From the NCBI GenBank assembly GCA_029552245.1, contig JAKPDW010000053.1, forward strand, positions 1 through 64,000: a stretch of 64,000 bases of DNA, read 5' to 3'. Below the pieces are notes generated by a model. It was given only the letters and a program-made list of their open reading frames with translations. It made no database searches and had not been told where the DNA came from. The stretch comes from Deltaproteobacteria bacterium. GTDB lineage: Bacteria; Desulfobacterota; Desulfomonilia; UBA1062. Of the stretch, positions 2,005-51,505 are shown in pieces; positions within the stretch are counted from its first letter, which is position 1, and every line of letters begins with the position of its first letter. The position numbers were made by a program, and so were the translations under genes.

Positions 2005-2235
2005 GTGACGTCAGGGGGGAACGACAGGGGGTCGAGACCGCCGGTAAGGGTCGTGAAGTGTCCTGGCTGCGGCAGGGAAGTGCCCTACGAGGGGAATCCG
2101 TACCGGCCTTTCTGTTCGAGGGGATGCAAGGGCCTGGACCTTGTCCACTGGGTGAGCGGGGAATACAGGATCCCCTCGAAACCCGAGGAAGAGTCGCCGA
2201 GAGATGGAAGAGACGACGAGCCCAGTCATTCTTGA
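2005..2235 (+). CDS. yacG: DNA gyrase inhibitor YacG (zinc-binding)
   Basis: A 76-residue protein with one treble-clef-like zinc site: Cys19-x2-Cys22 in VKCPGCGREV and Cys37-x3-Cys41 in RPFCSRGCKGLDL. The spacing and the following DL-x-HW-x-SGEYRIP match YacG, which in E. coli binds GyrB and inhibits gyrase. The acidic, Ser-rich tail is also usual. The start is GTG at 2005, preceded by GGGAGG at 1992-1997 with 7-base spacing. The last 32 bases overlap the start of pcnB, so the two are probably translationally coupled. Family assignment is firm; the gyrase role here is inferred by homology. Confidence 0.9.
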   Translation: MTSGGNDRGSRPPVRVVKCPGCGREVPYEGNPYRPFCSRGCKGLDLVHWVSGEYRIPSKPEEESPRDGRDDEPSHS

Positions 2236-3463
2236 CCGGTCGGCACACCCCATCTCCCGAAGGGATATCGACCCCGACGCGCTGAAGGTCCTCTACCGCC
2301 TGAGCAGGCACGGGTTCAAGGCCTATCTCGTCGGCGGAGCCGTGAGGGACCTCCTCCTCGGCAAGAAGCCGAAGGATTTCGACGTCGCCACGGACGCGCG
2401 GCCGGGGCAGGTCAAGAAACTCTTCTCCAACTGCTTCCTCGTGGGCCGGAGATTCAGGCTGGCGCACATCAGGTTCAGGGGAAACAAGATCATCGAGGTG
2501 GCCACGTTCAGGAGGGACCCCGACCCTGAGCACGACTCCCCGACCGACATCCACAACACCTTCGGCACGCCTGTCCAGGACGCCCTCAGGAGGGACATCA
2601 CCATGAACGCCCTGTTCTACGACATCGAGACCTTCTCGGTGATCGACTTCGTGGGCGGGCTCGAGGACATCGCGAACCGCAGAGTGAGGGTCATCGGGGA
2701 CCCGCCCGGCCGTTTCTCGGAGGACCCGGTGCGCATGTGGCGGGTGTTGAGACACGCCTCGAGGCTCGGGTTCGCAGTGGACGAGCATGCCGCACGGGCC
2801 ATCCGCGATCAGCGCGGGTTGCTCGCCGGATGCTCGGGCGCGAGACTCTACGAGGAACTCAACAAGGACTTGAGCTACGGCAAGGCCCGGGAGACCTTTT
2901 CGCTCCTCATGGAATACGGCCTCCTCTCCATCCTTCTCGGCGCCGTCGGGGAACGGCTGGAACAGGACGCATCGCTTGCCGGCGCCTTTCTTGATCTCAT
3001 GGGGGCGCATGACAGGATGCTCGCCTCTGGCGGAAAGTTCGAGGCGACCGTGGCATACAGCCTCCTCCTGTGGCCCTGGGCGTGTGCTACCTTGATGTCG
3101 GGTTCGGCCCCCGGCACGGACAGGGCGAGGCTCCTCGCTGAGGAGATCGAGCGCGCCGGCATGATCGTGACGATCCCCAAGGGGCTGCGCTCCAGCGCCG
3201 TCCACGTCATACTCGCGGTGAACGCCATGATGCGGTCCCTCGAGACGGGAAGGCTCAAGACCTCGCTCATGGGCCGCTCCGACTACGGGACCGCCCTCAG
3301 GGTGTTCGCCCTCGTGTCAGGTATCCCCGTGTCCGATGGGAAAGACCCGTTCCTCGAGCTCTTTCGCGCGCGCTACCCGGGCGTGAGAGAGAGGCGCGCC
3401 CGAAAGAGGAGGAGGCGCCGTCGCAGGCGTCCCCAGGGGAACGAGCCGAGCGACACGGCGTGA
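2204..3463 (+). CDS. pcnB: Poly(A) polymerase / tRNA nucleotidyltransferase-superfamily protein
   Basis: A 419-residue class II nucleotidyltransferase of the PcnB branch, which adds 3' poly(A) tails to RNA and so promotes decay. Residues 44-49 (GGAVRD) and the carboxylates Asp58 and Asp60 in KKPKDFDVAT form the catalytic site. NCFLVGRRFRLAH and the RRDITMNALFYD block are typical of PcnB rather than CCA-adding enzymes. A neck domain around EDPVRMWRVLRHASRLGF follows. The protein ends in a strongly basic Arg-rich tail (RARKRRRRRRRR), as in many PcnB proteins, presumably for RNA binding. It starts inside yacG. CCA-adding activity cannot be excluded from sequence alone. Confidence 0.9.
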   Translation: MEETTSPVILDRSAHPISRRDIDPDALKVLYRLSRHGFKAYLVGGAVRDLLLGKKPKDFDVATDARPGQVKKLFSNCFLVGRRFRLAHIRFRGNKIIEVATFRRDPDPEHDSPTDIHNTFGTPVQDALRRDITMNALFYDIETFSVIDFVGGLEDIANRRVRVIGDPPGRFSEDPVRMWRVLRHASRLGFAVDEHAARAIRDQRGLLAGCSGARLYEELNKDLSYGKARETFSLLMEYGLLSILLGAVGERLEQDASLAGAFLDLMGAHDRMLASGGKFEATVAYSLLLWPWACATLMSGSAPGTDRARLLAEEIERAGMIVTIPKGLRSSAVHVILAVNAMMRSLETGRLKTSLMGRSDYGTALRVFALVSGIPVSDGKDPFLELFRARYPGVRERRARKRRRRRRRRPQGNEPSDTA

Positions 3464-3675
3464 CCTGGCGGCCCTGAACGGGGAATGCACGAGGTACACG
3501 GTTCGTGTGGTCTGAGGGCCATGCATGCAACATCACGGTATTAAAGGAGATATTCCCTCCCGCACTGATCCGTGATTCAGTGGCTATTGCATATTTCCCA
3601 CAGAGTGTTCCCCAGGGGTGACCCTGCCCGCTCCTAACAGCAATGAATCACGTCAAAAATCCCATCCCTCCTCTT

Positions 3676-3691
3676 TGGCACGGTAGATGCA
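3676..3691 (+). promoter_or_regulatory. Sigma-54 (RpoN) promoter for the small gene at 3722
   Basis: The sequence TGGCACGGTAGATGCA matches the consensus TGGCACG-N4-TTGCW at all but one core position and has the invariant GG and GC separated by exactly 10 bases. The predicted transcription start near 3702 leaves about 20 bases of leader containing the GGGGA ribosome-binding site. The activator is unknown. Confidence 0.7.
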
Positions 3692-3721
3692 TAAAAAGCG
3701 GGAACAAGACGGGGAATGGAC

Positions 3722-3946
3722 ATGAACAGGAAAGGGAATCTCGACATCATTCTGAAGAACATGGATACTTCGAGGGCGACCAAGGTTCTTGCCAAGAGCC
3801 TGTACAAGGAACTTGTCCGCAACGGGTTCACCCATAAAGACATCATTGACTTCTCGCGCGAGATGATCGACTACGTGGCCCATGAGATGCGCAGGGAGGC
3901 CACGATGGAGGAAGCCGGCCGCAAGGACCGCCTCCTAATCGGCTAA
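3722..3946 (+). CDS. Small conserved-looking hypothetical protein, sigma-54 controlled
   Basis: A 74-residue soluble, mostly helical protein (MNRKGNLDIILKNMD onward) with no cysteines, no signal peptide and no membrane segment. I do not recognise the family. The core LAKSLYKELVRNGF followed by DIIDFSREMIDYVAHEMR reads like a compact helical bundle with alternating charge. I chose ATG 3722 because GGGGA at 3711-3715 sits 6 bases before it; the ATG at 3716 directly abuts that site. Its promoter is a near-perfect RpoN site. Its last 12 bases overlap, tail to tail, the end of cmk on the other strand. The function is unknown. Its regulation suggests a stress, nitrogen, motility or surface-related role, which is inference only. 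Confidence 0.75.
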   Translation: MNRKGNLDIILKNMDTSRATKVLAKSLYKELVRNGFTHKDIIDFSREMIDYVAHEMRREATMEEAGRKDRLLIG

Positions 3947-4597
3947 CGCCTGTCTTACCATCGAGAGTATCTTGACCACCACCTCTTCCTGCGTGAGGTG
4001 TGTCGTGTCCACCACAAACGCGTTTTCCGGCACCCTGAGAGGCGAGTGGCGCCTCGACCCGTCTTGTTCGTCCCGTCTTCTCATGGATTCGAAGACCTCC
4101 GACGGGTCTGCATCCATCCCCTTCCGGGCGAACTCCGCATGCCTGCGGCGGGCGCGCTCGGCTATGTCCGCGTCGAGGAAGATCTTGAGATCCGCGCCGG
4201 GGAAGACCACCGAGCCCGTGTCCCGGCCCTCCGCGACGATGGATTCGCGGTCGGCCAACTCCCTCTGCAGGGCGGTGAGGCGTTTCCTCACGTCGGCATG
4301 GACGGCTATGGCGGAGGCCGCCTCGGCGACGCCGGGCGACCTTATGTCGGAGCTCACGTCTCTCCCGTCCAGGTACACCTTGTCCTCATGCAGGGATATC
4401 TCGGCCTTGTCGATCACCGAGGCGCATGCGACACCGTCTCTGGCATCGACCCCCGACGAGATCACGGCCAGTGCGGCGGCCCGGTACAAGGCGCCGGTGT
4501 CCAGGTAGGTGAAGCCCAGCCGGCGGGCGACCTCGCGGGCGACCGTCGATTTTCCGCTTCCTGCAGGGCCGTCGATGGTGATGATGCGGTGTTTCAT
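3935..4597 (-). CDS. cmk: Cytidylate kinase
   Basis: A 220-residue (d)CMP kinase that phosphorylates CMP/dCMP with ATP in pyrimidine nucleotide recycling. Residues 10-18 (GPAGSGKST) are the P-loop. YLDTGALYRAAAL is the CMP-site region, EGRDTGSVVFPGADLKIFLDA is the family-defining central block, and RRRDEQDGSR is the lid. It is the last gene of the pheA-hisC-tyrA-aroA-cmk transcript, and its ATG overlaps the aroA stop (ATGA at 4594-4597). Cmk next to aroA is a common arrangement. The usual downstream ispH and rpsA are absent. Length is normal for the family. Confidence 0.95.
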   Translation of the reverse strand: MKHRIITIDGPAGSGKSTVAREVARRLGFTYLDTGALYRAAALAVISSGVDARDGVACASVIDKAEISLHEDKVYLDGRDVSSDIRSPGVAEAASAIAVHADVRKRLTALQRELADRESIVAEGRDTGSVVFPGADLKIFLDADIAERARRRHAEFARKGMDADPSEVFESMRRRDEQDGSRRHSPLRVPENAFVVDTTHLTQEEVVVKILSMVRQALAD

Positions 4598-5838
4598 GCG
4601 AGGGAGTCCATGTCCTCGAAGAACCTCGGGTATGATATCCTGACGCAGGAGGGGTCGTCGATGCCGATCTCGGTGTCCGACGCCCTTGCCAACACGGCGA
4701 AGGACATGGCTATCCTGTGGTCGGAGAAGGTCCTCACGGATGCGGGGGACAACCGTGCCGGCCCGTTGACGATGAGGCCGTCCTCGAGCTCCTCCACCGT
4801 CGCCCCCAGCCGCGTGAGGCCTTCGACCATGGCGCTTATGCGGTCGGTCTCCTTGACCCTGAGTTCCCGTGCACCGGTGATGACCGTGGTGCCCTCGGCG
4901 AGGGCGGCGGCCACGACGAGCGCAGGGATCTCGTCGATGAGCGAGGGCACTTCCTCTGCCGTAATCGTGACCGCCTTGAGGTGCGATCCCTTCACGACGA
5001 GGTCGCCCACCGGCTCCCCGGCCTGGAGCTTCTCGTTCTCGATCGCTATGCACGCACCCATCCGCTCGAGGACCCTGAGGAACCCCGTCCTCGTCGGATT
5101 CAGGCAGACTCCCCTTATGAGCACCGACGATCCCGGCGTCGCGGCGGCCCACACGACCGGGAAGGCGGCGGACGAAGGGTCTCCCGGCACGGTTATCTCC
5201 CGTGCGGTGAGCTGCTGCGGCCCGGTGACGCTCACCGATTTCGATCTCACCTCCACCGTCGCCCCGAACCCCGCGAGCATCCTCTCGGTGTGATCCCGGC
5301 TCGTGGATGGCTCGTTCACCGTCGTGGTGCCCTCGGCGAAGAGGCCTGCCAGGAGCAGCGCCGACTTGACCTGGGCGGATGCCACCTCCATGGGGTGAAA
5401 GATCCCCCTGAGTTTCCCCCCCCTGACCGCCATGGGCAAGAATGAGCCCGACCTCGCCATGAACCTCGCGCCCATGAGCTCCAGGGGCTTTATGACGCGT
5501 GCCATGGGCCTCTTGATGAGGGATTCGTCGCCGGTCATGACGGTGATGCCCTCGATCCCCGAGACGATGCCCGAGACGAGCCTCGCCGTGGTGCCCGAGT
5601 TGCCCGCGTCTACGACGTGTGTCGGTTCCCTCAGGGTTGACCCGTCCACGAGGTAGGAGTCGCCGTCTTTGCGGATCGACGCGCCCAGGGCCGCGAGCGC
5701 CTTGCGGGTGCTCGCGATGTCCTCGGACTCCAGGGCGTTTCGTATCACCGTGGTCCCGTGCGCGAGAGAGCCGATCATGAAGCACCGGTGCGTGATCGAC
5801 TTGTCCGGCGGGGGCGTTATCTCACCGTGGGCTTTCAT
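4594..5838 (-). CDS. aroA: 3-phosphoshikimate 1-carboxyvinyltransferase (EPSP synthase)
   Basis: A 414-residue enzyme of the shikimate pathway that joins PEP to shikimate 3-phosphate. Signatures are PPPDKSITHR at the N-terminus (shikimate/PEP-binding lysine), DAGNSGTTARL (the LxxGNAGTAxR site), ELRVKETDRISAM and the C-terminal FSDHRIAM. I start it at ATG 5838 (MKAHGEI), because AGGAGG lies at 5846-5851 with ideal spacing. A longer reading from 5862 lacks such a site. It overlaps the end of tyrA by 17 bases and cmk by 4. The N-terminal motif differs from the canonical PGDKS, so glyphosate sensitivity cannot be predicted. Confidence 0.95.
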   Translation of the reverse strand: MKAHGEITPPPDKSITHRCFMIGSLAHGTTVIRNALESEDIASTRKALAALGASIRKDGDSYLVDGSTLREPTHVVDAGNSGTTARLVSGIVSGIEGITVMTGDESLIKRPMARVIKPLELMGARFMARSGSFLPMAVRGGKLRGIFHPMEVASAQVKSALLLAGLFAEGTTTVNEPSTSRDHTERMLAGFGATVEVRSKSVSVTGPQQLTAREITVPGDPSSAAFPVVWAAATPGSSVLIRGVCLNPTRTGFLRVLERMGACIAIENEKLQAGEPVGDLVVKGSHLKAVTITAEEVPSLIDEIPALVVAAALAEGTTVITGARELRVKETDRISAMVEGLTRLGATVEELEDGLIVNGPARLSPASVRTFSDHRIAMSFAVLARASDTEIGIDDPSCVRISYPRFFEDMDSLA

Positions 5839-48149: not shown

Positions 48150-49949
48150 ATGAAAAGGCTCCAGGAAAGATCGTACCCGAAAGGCGGCAGCGAGAGGATC
48201 GAAGGGCGTCGCTCTCACGGGGTGCCTGCCTCCCCTGTGCCCGGCGATCTCCTCGAGAACATCCTCGACTCGGCCAATTTCGGGCTCATTGCGGCGGACA
48301 GGACGGGGAGGGTGATCTTCGTCAACAGCCTGGCGCGCTCCATTCTCGACATCATGGACGACCTCCTTGATCGTCGGCTGTTCGTGGGGGAGATCGACCC
48401 GGACATGTGGGAGAGCTACCGGGAGATCATGGCCACGGGCAAGCCCCAGGTGAACCTTCCCGTCGTTTTCCGGGACATCCCCCTCGTGAGCCACAGGCTG
48501 CCGATCGTCAGGAACGGGGAGATCATCGGCGCCATGAGCATCTTCAAAGAGCGCGAGGCCTACGAGGAGCTGGCCAACGACGTCTTCAGGCTCAAGGAGT
48601 ACGCAAGGGAGATCGAGGCGATCATCGAGTCATCCTACGACGGCATCTACGTCACCGACGGCGAGGCGAACACCATCCGGGTGAACTCGGTCTACGAGAA
48701 GATAACGGGGATCAAGGCCTCGGAGGTCATCGGCAGGAACATGGAAGAGCTCGTGAGGGAGGGCTACTTCGACGAGAGCGTGAGCCTCAGGGTCTTGAAG
48801 GAGAGAAGACCGGTCACTATCATGCAGACCCTCAAGTCGGGAAAGAGCATCCTGGTGACGGGCAACCCCATCTTCGACGAAGGCGGGAACGTCAGGATGA
48901 TCGTCACGAACGTGCGCGACATGACCGACCTCGTGGAACTCGAGCAGCAGCTCGAGTACACCAAGGGGATGACGAGCGCCTACAGGGACGCGCTCAAGTC
49001 GCTCCAGAAGGCCAACATCCGCGACAACGACATCATCATGGTCTCCGAGCCCATGCTCCACATCCAGGAACTGCTCGAGAGGGTGTCCAAGACGGATTCG
49101 ACGGTCCTCATCTACGGCGAGACGGGCGTCGGCAAGGACAGGATCGCGGAGGAGATCCACGAGAGGTCCCACCGCGCCGAGACGGGGATCTTCGTCAAGA
49201 TCAACTGCGGCGCCATTCCCGAGACCCTCTTGGAGAGCGAGCTCTTCGGGTACGAGAGGGGCGCCTTCACCGGGGCCCGCAAGGAGGGGAAGTCCGGGCT
49301 CTTCGAGGTGGCGAACAGGGGGACCCTCTTCTTGGACGAGGTGGAGTCGATGCCCATGGTCCTCCAGTCGAAGCTCCTGCGGGTGCTCCAGAGCTTCGAG
49401 TTCACGAGGGTGGGGGGGACGAGGCCCATCAAGGTGGACGTGAGGATCATCTGCGCGTCGAACCAGGACCTCAAGGAACTCATCGCGAAGAAACAGTTCA
49501 GGGCGGACCTCTACTACCGCCTGAACGTGATACCCATCTACGTGCCGCCGCTGCGCGAGAGGAGGGACGACATCCCCTACCTCGTGCATTTCTTCCTGAA
49601 CCGGTTCAACAAGAAGCACGGGACAAGGAAGAAGATCTCCAAGGAGGCCATGGACCACTTGGTCGCCTACCCGTGGCCAGGCAACGTCCGCGAGGTGGCG
49701 AACGTCATCGAGCGCCTCGTGGTGATCTCCCACAACGACTACATCGTTCCCGCCAACCTTCCCCGGGAGATCTTCGAGAAGGGGGTGAAGGACTTCTTCG
49801 AGAGCGGCCTCACGCTGAAGGAGCAGATGGGACGGATCGAGGTCTCCATCATCAAGAAGGCGATCGAGAAGTTCGGCAGCGCCCGCAAGGCCGCCCCTCA
49901 CCTGGGGATAGACGCCAGCACGCTCACCAGGAAGCTCAAGAAGCTCTAG
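48150..49949 (+). CDS. Sigma-54-dependent transcriptional activator with PAS domains
   Basis: 599 residues from ATG 48150 (AAGGAGG about 11 bases upstream; the longer frame from 47811 lacks domain support). Two PAS domains lie at about 34-140 and 155-265 (NILDSANFGLIAADRTGRVIF; IIESSYDGIYVTDGEANTI), then the AAA+ sigma-54 domain at 300-530 with Walker A G323-E-T-G-V-G-K329, the sigma-54-contacting GAFTGA loop at 371-376, and a C-terminal Fis-type HTH (KKAIEKFGSARKAAPHLGID). There is no receiver domain, so it senses ligand, redox or metabolite via PAS. It probably drives the near-consensus RpoN promoter at 51490 and the downstream carboxylase operon, but other targets are possible. Confidence 0.92.
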   Translation: MKRLQERSYPKGGSERIEGRRSHGVPASPVPGDLLENILDSANFGLIAADRTGRVIFVNSLARSILDIMDDLLDRRLFVGEIDPDMWESYREIMATGKPQVNLPVVFRDIPLVSHRLPIVRNGEIIGAMSIFKEREAYEELANDVFRLKEYAREIEAIIESSYDGIYVTDGEANTIRVNSVYEKITGIKASEVIGRNMEELVREGYFDESVSLRVLKERRPVTIMQTLKSGKSILVTGNPIFDEGGNVRMIVTNVRDMTDLVELEQQLEYTKGMTSAYRDALKSLQKANIRDNDIIMVSEPMLHIQELLERVSKTDSTVLIYGETGVGKDRIAEEIHERSHRAETGIFVKINCGAIPETLLESELFGYERGAFTGARKEGKSGLFEVANRGTLFLDEVESMPMVLQSKLLRVLQSFEFTRVGGTRPIKVDVRIICASNQDLKELIAKKQFRADLYYRLNVIPIYVPPLRERRDDIPYLVHFFLNRFNKKHGTRKKISKEAMDHLVAYPWPGNVREVANVIERLVVISHNDYIVPANLPREIFEKGVKDFFESGLTLKEQMGRIEVSIIKKAIEKFGSARKAAPHLGIDASTLTRKLKKL

Positions 49950-51489: not shown

Positions 51490-51505
51490 TGGCACTTTCT
51501 TTGCT
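51490..51505 (+). promoter_or_regulatory. Sigma-54 promoter of the biotin-carboxylase operon
   Basis: TGGCACTTTCTTTGCT fits TGGCACG-N4-TTGCW with only the 7th base different; GG and GC are separated by 10 bases. It lies in front of the operon on the same strand, and a sigma-54 activator gene is 1.5 kb upstream. Confidence 0.75.

Follow-up and report, generated by a model that had tools for sequence, protein, structure and literature searches.

A conserved single-gene, RpoN-type unit with a previously undescribed small protein in a family of uncultured anaerobes

We analyzed a 64-kb stretch of DNA (the window) from a genome, G000, whose family we take to be UBA1062 of the class Desulfomonilia. 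A small gene preceded by a sigma-54 (RpoN) -24/-12 box lies here between a pcnB-like gene and a convergent cmk-like gene, beyond which follow aroA-, tyrA-, hisC- and pheA-like genes (names from sequence reading). The features of the locus are collected in Table 1. In 17 of the 19 named loci, one of the four closest ORFs upstream belongs to the pcnB-like cluster; the 19 named contigs are from metagenome genomes labeled Deltaproteobacteria, Thermodesulfobacteriota or (once) Syntrophaceae bacterium UBA1062. The cmk-like gene is found in convergent orientation downstream wherever the contig reaches that far (19 copies). A search for RNA families returned none in positions 3300-4100.

Table 1. Coordinates of the features of the small-gene locus in the window
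Feature	Positions	Strand	Remarks
pcnB-like nucleotidyltransferase gene	2204-3463	+	upstream context; name from sequence reading
Candidate enhancer (UAS) ATTGCATATTTCCCACA	3586-3602	+	starts 90 bases before the sigma-54 box
Degenerate IHF-like site TAACAGCAATGAA	3635-3647	+	between UAS and promoter; 6/9 consensus positions
Sigma-54 (RpoN) -24/-12 box TGGCACGGTAGATGCA	3676-3691	+	near-exact match and conservation
74-codon gene, predicted helical-hairpin protein	3722-3946	+	start ATG 3722, stop at 3946
Convergent 3'-end overlap of small gene and cmk, 12 bases	3935-3946	.	ends of both frames
cmk-like gene (cytidylate kinase), convergent	3935-4597	-	name from sequence reading; context, not part of the unit

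The small gene was matched in 22 of the 60 genomes searched (the window's own included): one is distant, and the others are 21 of the 24 members of the window's family, from 9 genera. The initial search found it in 0 of the 18 genomes of the class's other family, where a broader profile subsequently picked up a single weak match (G024, E 3.8e-4). Left out of the counts of 21 copies are the relative in G054 (L022), a diverged second copy in G001 (L023) and a 22-residue fragment at a contig end in G002 (L024); the diverged copy (L023:1501-1674, minus strand) has no sigma-54 box. Exactly 74 codons are present in 20 of the 21 copies, and differences among these equal-length copies amount to 0.26, 0.16 and 0.52 at first, second and third codon positions. 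As judged from the alignment, the gene is under coding selection and the protein itself is clearly selected. ATG 3716 is also in frame, but the Met encoded at 3722 is shared without exception by the 21 aligned copies (the window included), and the earlier codon appears the less likely start. Two of the three family genomes without the small gene have no cmk match, and the third (G019) has a 34% partial match that is probably to another kinase; since none of the three gives a convincing cmk match, the locus itself is probably missing from these assemblies. Among the 24 genomes, none was seen to show the locus and lack the gene. Gene and control region are present together in 21 of the 24 genomes, and in the remaining three the locus seems not to have been assembled; we therefore suggest that losing the gene has been selected against. 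On this comparison the gene is very likely real and conserved, and the preliminary description, which had called the protein conserved-looking, is borne out in this respect by retention of the frame in those 21 family genomes.

The promoter was examined in the same copies. A sigma-54 consensus is TGGCACN5TTGCW-like, and the window box displays GG at -24, GC at -12 and the exact spacing, being a single base off. Its -12 element reads ATGCA and not TTGCA/T, and that A is kept in 18 of the 21 copies. The preliminary description had placed a near-perfect RpoN box 30 bases before ATG 3722; this was confirmed, and in slightly relaxed form a box precedes the small gene in all 21 family copies (9 genera, the window included), starting 36-53 bases ahead of the start of the matched stretch. 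One report gives the consensus as TGGCACN5-7TTGCT (PMC12316311). The pattern TGGCAY-N5-WTGCW occurs at 2 sites on both strands of the 64-kb window against 0.15 expected from shuffles, and at 34 sites in the whole genome against 5 for the reversed control pattern. With two mismatches allowed, 49 sites were found in the window against 52 expected, a frequency that is not special; consequently, the weight of the box rests on its near-exact match and its conservation. Note that the 21 family copies are mutually related and do not represent independent cases. From the position of the box, transcription would be expected to start near 3702, and we regard an RpoN-type promoter of the small gene as well supported by the sequence comparison.

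Comparison of the copies also revealed a conserved upstream element that was missing from the preliminary description. The distance from the start of this element, ATTGYAnA-N5-CACA, to the box is 89-92 bases in 20 of the 21 family copies, with ATTGCA in 19 of them and ATTGTA in L016; the remaining copy (L017) has a variant in the same place. On visual inspection, the sequence separating element and box shows little conservation, suggesting that the distance between them is maintained and not just a result of descent. In the alignment we read the core of the element as an imperfect dyad, TGYA-N5-TRCA, which would suit a dimeric DNA-binding protein. In 19 of the 24 family genomes, element and box together occur once, always at the small-gene locus; the remaining two genomes that have the gene carry L016 and L017. 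The reversed control pattern of element and box gave 0 matches in the family genomes, and 0.00 are expected in shuffles of the window. When 30 of the 34 sigma-54 sites of the window's genome were fetched, the element preceded one, the small-gene site. Box, element and gene, and their joint conservation, are thus what the comparison of copies establishes.

An IHF site between such an element and the box is usual, not obligatory. Shuffled sequences yield IHF-like sites as good as the one in the window (p 0.96). In 7 of the 21 copies the site matches 9/9 consensus positions, and the same 7 fall below p 0.05 against single-base shuffles, while the other 14 do not. In 12 of the 21 copies the best IHF-like site sits 40-42 bases ahead of the box in one and the same orientation, and the 7 perfect sites share a near-fixed place. 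An IHF site between activator site and promoter is described as usual for RpoN promoters (PMC7962754). Judged by its sequence elements, the control region has the organization of an enhancer-dependent RpoN promoter for a single gene. It resembles promoters of the Desulfovibrio vulgaris sigma-54 regulome (PMC4641369) in its -24/-12 box, in an element about 90 bases upstream and in the presence of RpoN and bEBPs among the encoded proteins. The likeness to the sigma-54 UAS/IHF promoters described there extends, in some copies, to the IHF-like site in between; here, however, the patterns used reveal no further target of the element among the sigma-54 sites that were examined.

RpoN (PF04552) was found in the window's genome and in 23 of the 24 family genomes; G013 (86% complete) carries the small gene and gave no RpoN match. 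The window's genome has 21 strong bEBP matches. We searched for bEBPs in six family genomes and compared frames from three of them (G008, G009 and G010) with those of G000, a set of 62 bEBP frames from four genomes in which G000 accounts for 23 (two neighboring bEBPs were met twice) and in which two stretches of G008 gave no frame by motif. Seven bEBPs of G000 (L107, L109, L110, L113, L114, L120 and L122) have reciprocal best hits in G008, G009 and G010. Since a family-wide promoter should be served by a core activator, these seven core bEBPs constitute a shortlist of candidate activators.

The preliminary description had envisaged a helical protein of 74 residues, and the AlphaFold (AF2) model agrees, with helices at residues 3-13 and 16-33 and a long helix at 38-73 (mean pLDDT 81.8, pTM 0.54). 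The protein is therefore predicted to be a short helix followed by a helical hairpin. No significant match was found for it in Pfam, NCBIfam, PHROGs, PADLOC or PDB. Weak library matches (Spo0E-like, RsbU_N, DNA polymerase II and an unnamed PHROG at 0.017) differ between members, are at chance level and were set aside. Structure searches with Foldseek and VIA-align gave no clear match and none above noise, an absence that excludes nothing. The top Foldseek hit is the KaiA C-terminal domain (E 3.1, rank 1 of 18 weak hits), and the RsbU N-terminal domain is a weak Pfam match in 1 of 20 members (E 0.035, a chance-level score). KaiA-C and RsbU_N are akin as helical domains, and no KaiA chain is among the profile matches in PDB sequences. 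Searching PDB with the broad alignment A4 brought up two kinds of repeat protein, whose low E-values are sums of many tiny insignificant pieces, and epsin-2 (E 0.0099-0.064 over 27 residues); we rejected all of these. No relatives of the small protein were found in the plasmids or viral contigs searched. Nor was the protein met in the literature on sigma-54 regulons and Spo0E, although for a protein with no name to look up this counts for little. Its kind of regulation is well known; the family to which it belongs is new to these libraries.

A family profile run over 395 phylum-sampled genomes matched 16, comprising 11 of the same family, G054, G083, G091, G371 and, weakly, G267 (per-genome E-values, distant relatives and family profile, 2.6e-8 to 0.003 over the 395 genomes). 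A broader profile, which was built partly from these G-labeled relatives and matches them by construction, gave 17 genomes: the same 11, G054, G083, G091, G371, G354 and, weakly, G024. We did not interpret the matches in G267 (L100, short and with a stop inside the frame) and G024 (L146, weak). In G054 and G091, which represent 2 of the 4 genomes of one small group, the relatives are stand-alone small proteins whose genes follow sigma-54 boxes, with 1 mismatch in G054 and 0 in G091. These two share an upstream dyad, ATGTGTCA-N4-TGACAT, located 106 and 108 bases before the box, that differs from the window's element. In G371 the hairpin is instead the C-terminal domain of a GAF protein, and G354 has a similar ORF. 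These frames (family f100), of 291 residues in G354 and 269 in G371, carry GAF (by Pfam for G371 only) and, unlike the window protein, are not stand-alone; identity to the window core is 26% in G371. Also unlike the window, the only sigma-54-like site at the G371 locus (2 mismatches) falls inside an upstream ORF. In G083 the relative is a small ORF that follows a histidine-kinase-like ORF (named from sequence reading) at a distance of about 570 bases and has no sigma-54 box upstream. A sigma-54-like box, AGGCACTTCGCTTGCT, lies after this relative (L097:1715-1730) and before an ORF at 1786 with, by reading, a zinc-ribbon-like C-terminus. A match of the G083 relative to a phage capsid-assembly model (E 0.0034) is below the cut-off and was given no weight. 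Altogether, 3 of the 5 distant genomes point to signaling and 2 of the 5 to RpoN control, and it is on these small numbers that we base the hypothesis of an adaptor.

The observation that motivated the study is confirmed at the level of sequence comparison: the locus is a single-gene, RpoN-type unit with a previously undescribed small protein. To its fuller interpretation, a single-target, enhancer-dependent RpoN unit making a small cytoplasmic helical signaling adaptor, we give roughly an even chance. A signal would activate a bEBP, which we infer to bind the element at 3586-3602. Looping of the DNA, perhaps aided by IHF in some relatives, would then bring the bEBP to the RNA polymerase-sigma54 complex on 3676-3691, and RpoN-dependent transcription from near 3702 would yield a transcript with a leader of about 20 bases that encodes the 74-residue helical protein. 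This product, most likely cytoplasmic, small and possibly oligomeric, would act as an adaptor that binds another signaling protein and modulates its output. A small signaling adaptor is our best guess for function, drawn from the few distant relatives of the hairpin. The preliminary description had seen in the protein a regulator or partner in an RpoN-dependent process; such a role may be hinted at by the GAF fusion, the nearby kinase-like ORF and a Cache-like neighbor in 13 of 21 copies. If the element indeed has a single target, it offers a clean handle, since identifying its binder would link a single signal to a single activator and a single output. The setting is a group of uncultured anaerobes, and the protein is absent from all family libraries searched.

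The convergent arrangement with cmk invites an excludon-like explanation, in which the RpoN transcript from near 3702 would enter cmk from its 3' side and interfere with, or be antisense to, the cmk-aroA-tyrA-hisC-pheA transcript, mattering as much as the protein. We hold this to be unlikely, if less so than the explanations that follow. Small gene and cmk-like gene overlap by 12 or 15 bases in 18 of the 19 copies where the end of the opposite gene is readable, and around the overlap neither strand gave an intrinsic terminator. The tool scan of positions 3400-4700 returned none, which says little for a stretch of this length, where chance would yield 0.7; a stricter scan around the 21 copies also gave none (three copies have <500 bases downstream) and, over the whole window, returned 2 on the plus and 4 on the minus strand. 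However, selection clearly acts on the protein itself, both transcripts could be terminated by Rho, the fixed overlap may be locked simply by the needs of both frames, and one copy, L019, keeps the small gene without the overlap. In that copy (G008; the same contig stretch as L041) the cmk-like frame ends 56 bases past the stop of the small gene, and the sequence opposite the stop, on visual inspection, still looks like the end of a cmk gene. The C-terminal LIG of the small protein is invariant; it falls within the overlap in 18 of the 19 readable copies and is kept in L019. We considered LIG as a docking or degradation tag and set the idea aside: the DNA constraint of the cmk overlap can explain its invariance, and L019 is one case, too few.

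A flagellar or motility factor, co-regulated with sigma-54 flagellar genes and comparable, for example, to an FlgM-like anti-sigma factor, is a considerably less probable product. Other sigma-54 sites of the genome do precede FlgF- and MotA-like genes (names by reading), and an FlhA-family match is present in 21 of the 24 family genomes. Yet G010 (97% complete) keeps gene, box and element with no FlhA match, and G022 (80% complete) is alike. Furthermore, no FlgM match was seen in Pfam or NCBIfam up to E 10, a search in which HMMER filters drop most weak matches, and the element is missing before the other 29 of the 30 sigma-54 sites fetched. In the window's own genome the FlhA-family match (G000:C69:17327-19281) is split into two adjacent pieces, the first with 2 TGA inside, and represents a broken gene or an assembly error.

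We attach the same low probability to the idea that the element serves, as promoter or repressor site, a divergent gene for a Cache-like membrane protein, which lies just upstream in 13 of the 21 copies (e.g., L029:7155-7790, minus strand) and, where present, starts close upstream of the element. The Cache-like gene was not found in the window, nor within 1500 bases upstream of the small gene in 7 other copies. Of these 8 copies, however, 7 keep the element and its spacing, and L017 has the variant in the same place. Since small gene, box and element (variant in L017) persist in these copies, the Cache-like gene is not essential to the unit. Its product has, by reading, a hydrophobic helix at each end around a modeled Cache/PAS-like domain. 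The best Foldseek E-value of this domain model is 1.1e-3, to the periplasmic part of TlpB, with none below 1e-3; the protein has no Pfam match and no output domain was seen in it.

Marginally less probable still is that the protein is an aspartyl-phosphate phosphatase of the Spo0E-like kind, with a response regulator as its substrate, perhaps the receiver of the bEBP itself. The sole Pfam match of the window protein is of this kind (E 0.13-0.14), and 2c0s, which we take to be a Spo0E-like protein, tops the PDB profile search with alignment A1 (E 0.33). Size is similar and the predicted helical hairpin is shared. These E-values are, however, at chance level, just 2 of 20 members match, and PF09388 reaches 12.7 bits (E 0.13), under the 23-bit cut-off. 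The SxxxD signature is absent, with D at S+4 in 0 of 21 copies and D or E at S+5 in 21 of 21. Compared with the Spo0E-like phosphatases (PF09388), including Spo0E of C. difficile (PMC11115286), the window family is alike in small size, helical hairpin and a loose FS-x-E stretch; it differs in lacking SxxxD (21 of 21), in an extra N-terminal helix and in sigma-54 control in Gram-negative bacteria, and the similarity is not significant. Finally, the box might match a degenerate consensus by accident and the ORF be spurious; this would agree with the chance-level frequency of the two-mismatch motif but is scarcely credible, being contradicted by conservation in 9 genera, the single occurrence of element and box per genome, the codon-position pattern and the shuffle counts.

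A bolder extension of the adaptor interpretation can be formulated, which we consider doubtful although less so than any of these alternatives. The hairpin would be an undescribed signaling domain that was wired to RpoN more than once (two families with different elements) and that also occurs C-terminally on GAF sensors. In the family studied here it would have been ancestrally paired with the sensor-only Cache-like membrane protein, its transcript opposing the cmk-aromatic amino acid cluster.

Elsewhere in the window, a second near-consensus sigma-54 box, TGGCACTTTCTTTGCT, is present at 51490-51505 on the plus strand. It lies downstream of a bEBP (AAA+ domain at 49035-49538) and upstream of a frame with, by reading, a PxpA/LamB-like stretch.
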